From Bacteroidota bacterium (GTDB taxonomy: Bacteria > Bacteroidota > Bacteroidia > Bacteroidales > UBA7960): 64,000 nucleotides of DNA. Below the pieces are notes generated by a model. The model was not told the DNA's origin. It saw only the letters and a program-made list of their open reading frames with translations, and made no database searches. Of this stretch, positions 1 to 3,743 are shown one piece after another. Each line of letters opens with the position of its first letter. Position 1 is the stretch's first letter. The stretch covers positions 1 to 64,000 of the forward strand of contig JAGXRQ010000059.1 in NCBI GenBank assembly GCA_018335675.1, written 5' to 3'. Position numbers and translations under genes: made by a program.

Positions 1-2
1 GA

Positions 3-302
3 CAAAATAAAACAATCAAACATAAGTCTATATTGGCTAAGGAACACATAAGCAAGGAAAATAACAATATCCACCTTCAACATGTAAACAACCTTCATGC
101 TCAACTGCGTAAATTCCTAAGACCATTTAATGGTGTAAGTTCAAAATATCTACAAAACTATCTAAACTGGTTTGCATATAAAGATAAACTATATGGAACG
201 AAGTCAACCATTAAACAATGGTTCTACGCAATTCTTGCTACGCCATACGCATATGAGCTGTTTTTGCAATTTAAAGATAATGCTGTTAATATTAGAACTT
301 AG
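3..302 (+). mobile_element. C-terminal remnant of an IS1595/ISXO2-like transposase
   Basis: The frame is open from the left edge of the window to a TAG at 302, so the upstream part lies outside. The visible residues contain HVNNLHAQLRKF and FNGVSSKYLQNYLNW, which resemble the conserved end of IS1595-family (ISXO2-like) transposases, where a His-rich strand is followed by an F-x-G-V-x-x-K-Y-L-x-N-Y-L-x-W block. The DDE residues that would prove activity are not in the window. The ORF track start at 33 is a TTG inside this longer frame and is probably not a real start. The last few codons overlap sequence that reads as TsaC in another frame, so the element boundary falls between about 275 and 303. 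I could not find a terminal inverted repeat. The family call is from memory and moderately confident. Confidence 0.6.
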
Positions 303-678
303 CCAGAAATATGTAAAAGAAGTTCCAGAAGTTGCCTTTGATCTTGTCAATAATATTCACGAACCTCTTACGATAATTTACGAAAATGCCCGTAATGTTG
401 CCAAGCATGTAGCTGCTGAAGATAAGTCTATTGCTATAAGAATACCTAGTGATGAGTTTTGTAGCACCCTCTTAAATAAGTTTGGCAAGCCAATTACTTC
501 TTCATCTGCAAATGTAAGTGGTGCACCAAGTCCACTGTATTATAGCCAAATTGATGATCAAATTAAAAATGCTGTGGATTATATTGTTCCAATAAATCAA
601 TTTGTCCTTAGCCGTCCAAAAGCATCCACAATTATAAGAATTACAGAAAACAAAGAAATTAAAGTACTTAGGAGTTAG
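280..678 (+). pseudogene. tsaC: 5'-truncated L-threonylcarbamoyladenylate synthase (TsaC/Sua5)
   Basis: The frame reads as the C-terminal two thirds of the Sua5/YciO/YrdC domain, which makes the threonylcarbamoyl-AMP used for tRNA t6A37 modification. Visible family features are YVKEVPEVAFDLV, the PLTIIY strand, AAEDKSIAIRIP and the substrate-pocket motif SSSANVSGAPSP. The N-terminal third, with the usual PTDTxxG strand and the KRxxxKPL-type basic motif, is absent, and the transposase remnant sits in its place. An ATG at 280 could start a 132-residue product, but that product would lack the ATP and bicarbonate site. t6A synthesis is normally essential, so an intact copy should exist elsewhere unless this is an assembly join. 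Family assignment is fairly secure; non-function is inferred. Confidence 0.72.
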
Positions 679-706
679 TAATAGCAAAAATTTTTCTTAC
701 TTCATT

Positions 707-2167: not shown

Positions 2168-2851
2168 ATGCACGCCTACAGATTTTTAATTCGATTTGAA
2201 GAGCTTTCTGACTTTAGCAGAGAGATTGATGTTCTTGCCGACCAGACTTTTGAAGACTTCTATAACGCATTAGCGACAAATTTAAAACTCGAGGATTCTA
2301 AATATGTAGTCTTCTATATTTGTGATCATAACTTTAGAAAAAAGACTGAAATTCCAAGAGAAGAGGCTTTTGCATCACCAAAGAAAAAAGTTAATAACGA
2401 TGATGATAATACTTCTACAGATAATGCAAAAATTATTCTGATGAAGAATGCCTATCTTAATGAATATATCGATGATCCGCACCAACGACTTATTATTGTT
2501 TATGATAAAATTAGTCAATGGACTTTTTATATCGAAATGACTAAGATATTGCAAGCTCAAGATAAAGTAAAGTACCCGGCCATTATTAAATCTGAAGGCG
2601 AAACCCCACGAGAACTCGTTCCTATAAAGATTATTGCTCCTGTTATAGAAGATAATGATGATTCTGTTTTTGTTGATGAAGATTCTGATGATGTTGATGA
2701 TGGAACATCCTATAACAATGAGGACATAGCTGAAATGGAAACCGACGAGTCGGGCGTAGTGGAAGTTGAAGATGAACCTTCTGAAGAAGAAGTGGATGAG
2801 CCTGATTTTTCTGAAGACTTTTCCGAAGACTTTGATGAAGAAAAATTCTGA
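2168..2851 (+). CDS. pRiA4b ORF3-like (IS1096 TnpR-like) domain protein with acidic tail
   Basis: A 227-residue protein. The N-terminal part (about 1-160) reads as the Bacteroidota branch of the plasmid pRiA4b ORF3-like domain: YRFLIRFEELSDFSREI, then TFEDFYNAL, then FYICDHNFRKKTEI and DDPHQRLIIVYD. The molecular role of this domain is not established. The last 70 or so residues are strongly acidic (runs of Asp and Glu such as DEDSDDVDDG and SEEEVDEPDFSEDF), so the tail is probably disordered. The acidic 3' end overlaps the miaA start by 17 bp, implying translational coupling. There is no signal peptide and the protein should be cytoplasmic. Despite the family name it shows no sign of being mobile here; it sits among housekeeping genes. 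Confidence 0.7.
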   Translation: MHAYRFLIRFEELSDFSREIDVLADQTFEDFYNALATNLKLEDSKYVVFYICDHNFRKKTEIPREEAFASPKKKVNNDDDNTSTDNAKIILMKNAYLNEYIDDPHQRLIIVYDKISQWTFYIEMTKILQAQDKVKYPAIIKSEGETPRELVPIKIIAPVIEDNDDSVFVDEDSDDVDDGTSYNNEDIAEMETDESGVVEVEDEPSEEEVDEPDFSEDFSEDFDEEKF

Positions 2852-3743
2852 CAAAACTCTTATTGTGCTGACTGGCCCAACGGCTGTCGGTAAAACTGAC
2901 CTAAGTATTCAGATTGCTCAAATGCTTGGTGTTCCAATCATATCTGCTGATTCAAGGCAGTTTTATAATGATTTAAAAATAGGCGTTGCCACACCTTCTC
3001 AAAATCAACTTGAAATTGTTAAGCATTTTTTTATTGGGCATCTTTCCATAGGCGATTATTATAACGTATCTATGTTTGAAAATCAAGCTCTACAAGTATT
3101 AGATTCTATTTTTGAAAACTCTGATTATGCATTAGTTACAGGTGGGTCGGGCTTATATTTGGATGCTTTGTGTTATGGAATTGATGATCGTCCTGATGTG
3201 AATGATGATGTTAGAAATGAATTGAAATTATTTTATAAAGAAAATGGAATACAGGGATTAAGGCTGAAATTGAAATCTATCGACCCGGAGTTCTATAAAG
3301 AAGTTGATATAGCAAACCCTAACCGAATGATACGTGCAATTGAAGTTTTTCTTACAACAGGGGAAAAGTTTTCATCCCTTAGAAAAAAAACATCAAAAAA
3401 AAGAAACTTCACAACTAAAATGATAATTCTTGAAAGAGAAAGGGCCGAAATATTCAATCGTATTAATGACAGAGTAGATGTTATGATACAGCAAGGTCTT
3501 ATTGAGGAGGCATTAAGTGTAATTAAGTATAGAAACACAAATGCTCTTAATACCGTTGGATATAAGGAAATATATGACTGGATTGATAATAAATGCTCTC
3601 TTATTCAAGCAATTGAGAAAATAAAAACAAATACTAGACGTTACGCAAAAAGGCAAATCACTTGGTTTAAAAAATATGCTGATGCAAAATGGATTAACCC
3701 TGATAACTTTGAAGCCATTAAGTTTTTTATTTATGAGAAGTAA
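2835..3743 (+). CDS. miaA: tRNA dimethylallyltransferase
   Basis: A 302-residue enzyme that transfers a dimethylallyl group to N6 of A37 in tRNAs reading UNN codons. The P-loop GPTAVGKTDL is near residues 12-21, the family motif SADSRQFY follows near residue 35, and GGSGLYLDAL near residue 100. The C-terminal part has the tRNA-binding NTVGYKEI segment and the RRYAKRQITWF helix. The ORF track start at 2766 adds 23 residues that overlap the acidic tail of the previous gene and match nothing in MiaA. The ATG at 2835, giving MKKNSDKTLIVLTGP, fits the family. It overlaps the upstream stop by 17 bp, and its own stop overlaps the next gene by 11 bp. Confidence 0.96.
   Translation: MKKNSDKTLIVLTGPTAVGKTDLSIQIAQMLGVPIISADSRQFYNDLKIGVATPSQNQLEIVKHFFIGHLSIGDYYNVSMFENQALQVLDSIFENSDYALVTGGSGLYLDALCYGIDDRPDVNDDVRNELKLFYKENGIQGLRLKLKSIDPEFYKEVDIANPNRMIRAIEVFLTTGEKFSSLRKKTSKKRNFTTKMIILERERAEIFNRINDRVDVMIQQGLIEEALSVIKYRNTNALNTVGYKEIYDWIDNKCSLIQAIEKIKTNTRRYAKRQITWFKKYADAKWINPDNFEAIKFFIYEK

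Follow-up and report, generated by a model that had tools for sequence, protein, structure and literature searches.

The window analysed here, a stretch of 64,000 nucleotides, begins at base 1 of a draft contig (C59), and its first 304 bp (1–304, forward strand, as for all window features below) form the right-hand end of an IS1595-type insertion sequence, which is cut by the end of the assembly and runs out in the terminus ...GAACTTAGCC. An open frame at 3–302 encodes the C-terminal ~99 residues of the transposase in the same direction as the gene that follows, and its stop codon falls inside the right terminal inverted repeat (282–304; reverse complement GGCTAAGTTCTAATATTAACAGC, to be compared with AGCTAAGTTCTAAATATATCAGC at the left end). 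This frame matches PF12762 (E 2.9e-4, below the whole-protein cut-off, the protein being cut), and a longer copy on contig C51 matches the IS1595 family model NF033547 (E 3.2e-13, likewise below the cut-off, most of the catalytic domain being unassembled). Comparison of all right-end copies of the element places its border exactly at 304/305. Beyond it lie the 3' two thirds of tsaC (305–678, residues ~64–187), a dead remnant without an internal stop and with an intact SxN motif (SSSANVSG); the region 271–675 aligns with PF01300 positions 44–177 at E 1.2e-24. About 66 of the 187 TsaC residues are absent from the window, in agreement with a preliminary description that read the locus as a tsaC gene deprived of its first third, either cut by an IS1595-like element or affected by an assembly join. 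A mechanical fusion frame leads from a TTG start inside the element into the remnant (172–678); it is putative and not thought to be functional.

The next gene, placed as in relatives, encodes a cca-type tRNA nucleotidyltransferase (707–2125, 472 aa) and is intact, as had already been noted. It is followed by a neighbour that relatives also keep (2168–2851) and by the next member of the conserved order, a tRNA dimethylallyltransferase gene (2766–3743) that we take to be miaA-like from sequence similarity and general knowledge. A promoter scan detected 6 sites, where 8.6 would be expected, and no terminator; it is uninformative on read-through into cca. Elsewhere in this genome (G000:C56:660–2126) lies another gene for a cca/poly(A) polymerase-like protein, distantly related and 32% identical to the product of the window's cca.

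The missing part of tsaC lies on another contig, C77 (262–429, reverse strand), flush with the left end of the element, as the preliminary description had anticipated for the case of a dead gene. This piece covers PF01300 positions 2–57 and reads MDFDFSKVIDVLNSGG...NFEMIKKY, after which the left end of the element begins. Both pieces are free of further lesions, and they are 75% (N-terminal part) and 80% (C-terminal part) identical to the TsaC of a genus-mate (G001), in which the gene is one intact frame of 193 aa. Sequence and synteny with cca both mark the split gene as an ortholog of the short threonylcarbamoyl-AMP synthase TsaC (YrdC), which it also resembles in retaining both motifs, one per half, KGR on C77 and SAN in the window. 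It differs in being split by the element and cannot be made as one protein; neither piece unites PF01300 with both KxR and SxN, the combination by which a type 1 TsaC is recognized. The last residues in the frame of the N-terminal piece are encoded by the element, and nothing suggests that this short product and that of the 172–678 frame, both mechanical, work jointly.

The two breakpoints carry an identical 9-bp sequence, AGAAATATG, at 305–313 in the window and again on C77 beside the left end of the element. With one copy of this target-site duplication retained, the reading frame runs on across the empty site (...NFEMIKKY|VKEVPEVAF). In relatives, an intact tsaC stands directly before cca, the conserved gene and miaA, and upstream of it is a gene that, from general knowledge, we take to be dapD-like. 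Here this order is divided, with the dapD-like gene on C77, separated from tsaC by one glycosyltransferase-like gene, and cca to miaA on C59; the two contigs are therefore neighbours, joined through the element. The preliminary description had also entertained a wrong join at the repeat, in which the transposon end would sit on the wrong flank and tsaC would be intact in the cell. The element is indeed a near-identical repeat found at many contig ends, where mis-joins are common in principle, but each tsaC half abuts a different end of the element, both halves point the same way, and together they share the duplication and restore the frame. On either side, the neighbouring genes agree with the syntenic block seen in relatives, and a PF01300 search found no intact short tsaC elsewhere in the genome. 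Duplication, restored frame and shared synteny point to a true insertion, and we consider an assembly error at this site extremely improbable.

Across the genome, the assembly is fragmented by 18 or more nearly identical copies of this IS1595-type element (at contig ends such as L002–L018 and L025–L040). The right end is found at 18 contig ends with 0–1 mismatches, always stopping at the same terminus before unrelated DNA, and the left end is found at 16. The near-identity of all copies indicates a recent spread of the element, and their position at contig ends explains the assembly breaks there. With the element ends fixed from the comparison of all copies, nine of the 288 possible pairings of a left with a right flank show an exact 8-bp match, whereas a control of 780 comparisons at displaced positions gave a mean of 0.006 and a maximum of 1. 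The element thus duplicates 8 bp as a rule, with 9 bp at the tsaC site; the 8-bp duplication that had been expected at tsaC is present there in this longer form and has its expected length at nine other sites. For IS1595 elements the duplication is usually 8 bp, and both target-site duplications and a zinc finger have been described (PMC8101967); in the IS1016 group, lengths of 7–9 bp have been reported (PMC12561309). Exact 8-bp duplications link nine further pairs of contigs: C84–C95, C119–C44, C69–C134, C38–C117, C28–C39, C23–C27, C38–C76, C36–C17 and C41–C145.

Membership in the IS1595 family (cf. ISApl4, PMC12561309) is supported by the transposase C-terminal match together with an N-terminal IS1/IS1595 zinc-binding domain (NF050000, 39.3 bits against a cut-off of 28, at the left end of the C49 copy). 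The element further resembles this family in a GGC... terminal repeat at one end, in its many copies, in insertions within genes and in A/T-rich duplications that measure 8 bp at nine sites and 9 bp at tsaC. The inverted repeat at its ends is imperfect and ~23 bp long. It departs from the family in its low domain scores, which reflect the incompleteness of the element, and in a left end that begins with A rather than G. The left part extends to at most 302 bp and the right part to at most 315 bp; the two do not meet, and the middle of the element is unassembled.

PF01300 occurs in five places in the genome: the window remnant, the C77 fragment, a HypF on C62, a YciO-like protein on C73 and a Sua5-like protein on C67. 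The last is a full-length Sua5 (TsaC2) with PF01300 and PF03481; it matches the threonylcarbamoyl-AMP synthase of PDB entry 6f87 at E 1.5e-74 and has all of its motifs, namely KxR (as KER), SxN (as SAN) and HY (within KSHYSP). Pathway partners are also encoded, with TsaD on C63 and a TsaB-like protein on C46. The earlier suggestion that another tsaC exists is thus borne out in the form of a complete Sua5, and not as a second intact copy of the short gene. The tsaC and sua5 genes of distant organisms are interchangeable (PMC10321239). Judged from the sequence of the C67 gene, the essential function was probably not lost, and we infer that this Sua5 carries TsaC's function in the organism. The YciO paralogue was weighed as a backup for TsaC and rejected because its catalytic motifs are lost: the C73 protein has the PF01300 domain and finds its best PDB match in E. 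coli YciO (1kk9/1k7j, E 1e-44), with KST and STSVYD in place of KxR and SxN. In vitro, YciO is slower at forming the product by more than four orders of magnitude, and in vivo it has no such function (PMC12506659).

Were C67 foreign, this backup would vanish. The draft genome, of 3.36 Mb in 150 contigs, has an estimated completeness of 97.99% and contamination of 2.69%. The composition of C67 is weakly atypical, at the edge of the range of the genome: its G+C is 0.377, where other contigs have 0.327–0.358, and its tetranucleotide profile correlates with that of the window at 0.674 (0.675–0.80 for twelve other stretches of the genome). Full-length Sua5 is moreover sporadic in the family, being found only in this genome and one other (G012) among 29 relatives. 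Taken together, these points would favour a reading in which the C67 Sua5 is a contaminant and the organism lives on damaged TsaC, through split-protein activity or the YciO paralogue. Against it, the MFS gene adjacent to sua5 has counterparts of 74% and 85% (partial) identity in two same-family genomes, a KAS III-like gene on C67 reaches 62% identity to family members, and the YciO copy has no catalytic motif. We hold contamination to be unlikely, rate this reading as a whole as quite improbable, and take C67 as native, with reserve. Two genes before sua5, the same contig carries a 1277-residue frame (L041:5367–9200) whose repeated domains resemble FISUMP/major paralogous domains, and this frame adjoins a gene with an apparent T9SS sorting tail.

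We propose, with high confidence, that a recent IS1595 insertion split tsaC and that the loss is tolerated thanks to the full-length Sua5. The multicopy element inserted recently at codon ~64 of an ancestral short tsaC, duplicating 9 bp of the target and leaving an N-terminal piece (now on C77) and a C-terminal piece (now on C59). The assembly broke at the repeated element, so that the halves came to lie at the ends of different contigs. In the cell, threonylcarbamoyl-AMP for t6A is most likely made by the C67 Sua5, which would have made TsaC redundant and its loss tolerable. We infer that no working pieces are expressed from tsaC and that the population is fixed for the insertion. In a different reading, interrupted and intact alleles were both sampled from a mixed population and TsaC is still the essential gene. 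Minority alleles are invisible in a population assembly, and short TsaC is kept in all 14 of the other named Sua5-bearing genomes examined, a small sample of genomes chosen for having Sua5; a common intact allele, on the other hand, would be expected to yield an uninterrupted contig, of which the assembly has none, and a full Sua5 is present. We judge a mixed population improbable, though less so than either contamination or a mis-join.

Beyond this genome, the nearest named Sua5 proteins are 84% identical and occur in Bacteroidales MAGs (e.g., UBA6192 and CSSed162cmA_513), and the window's cca is 66–68% identical to that of three of these Sua5-bearing MAGs, approximately the level within the organism's own family, which makes an uncultured Bacteroidales bacterium the most likely source of the window. 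KxR and SxN are both intact in the TsaC of 12 of the 14 Sua5-bearing genomes. In the other two, both Bacteroidetes MAGs, the arginine of KxR is replaced (KKC and KHH; genomes G430 and G432, loci L133 and L132, respectively). The same arginine is never replaced in seven genomes checked from the organism's own family, six of them without Sua5. Its loss in two Sua5-bearing genomes fits relaxed selection on TsaC after a gain of Sua5, although the sample is small and was selected for the presence of Sua5. A published survey describes co-occurrence of TsaC and Sua5 as rare and unstable (PMC10321239); within the Bacteroidales that have Sua5, it looks common. The present case resembles the TsaC-to-Sua5 replacement of that survey in that both types are found in one genome, Sua5 is sporadic and the resident TsaC is inactivated, and differs from it in that the inactivation is due to a recent transposon and co-occurrence seems common in these Bacteroidales. 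We raise, tentatively and as somewhat less than an even chance, the possibility that TsaC is unconstrained in Bacteroidales with Sua5 and is decaying in several lineages by different routes, with an enzyme swap in progress.

These findings explain the apparent death of an essential gene without exotic biology, and the event itself is ordinary. They also carry a caution, as an essential gene that appears truncated at the start of a draft contig may reflect a contig broken at a repeat together with a paralogue elsewhere in the genome. Until now, replacement of TsaC by Sua5 has been deduced chiefly from which species have or lack each type; the locus described here adds a recent, base-resolved loss of TsaC in a Sua5-bearing genome, and the genomes compared with it supply a set in which this replacement can be measured. 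If TsaC is indeed decaying across these lineages, the routes would include a transposon here and, in two further cases, a lost KxR arginine, and the view of TsaC/Sua5 co-occurrence as rare would be contradicted. The locus is a tidy snapshot of an essential enzyme of one type giving way to another.
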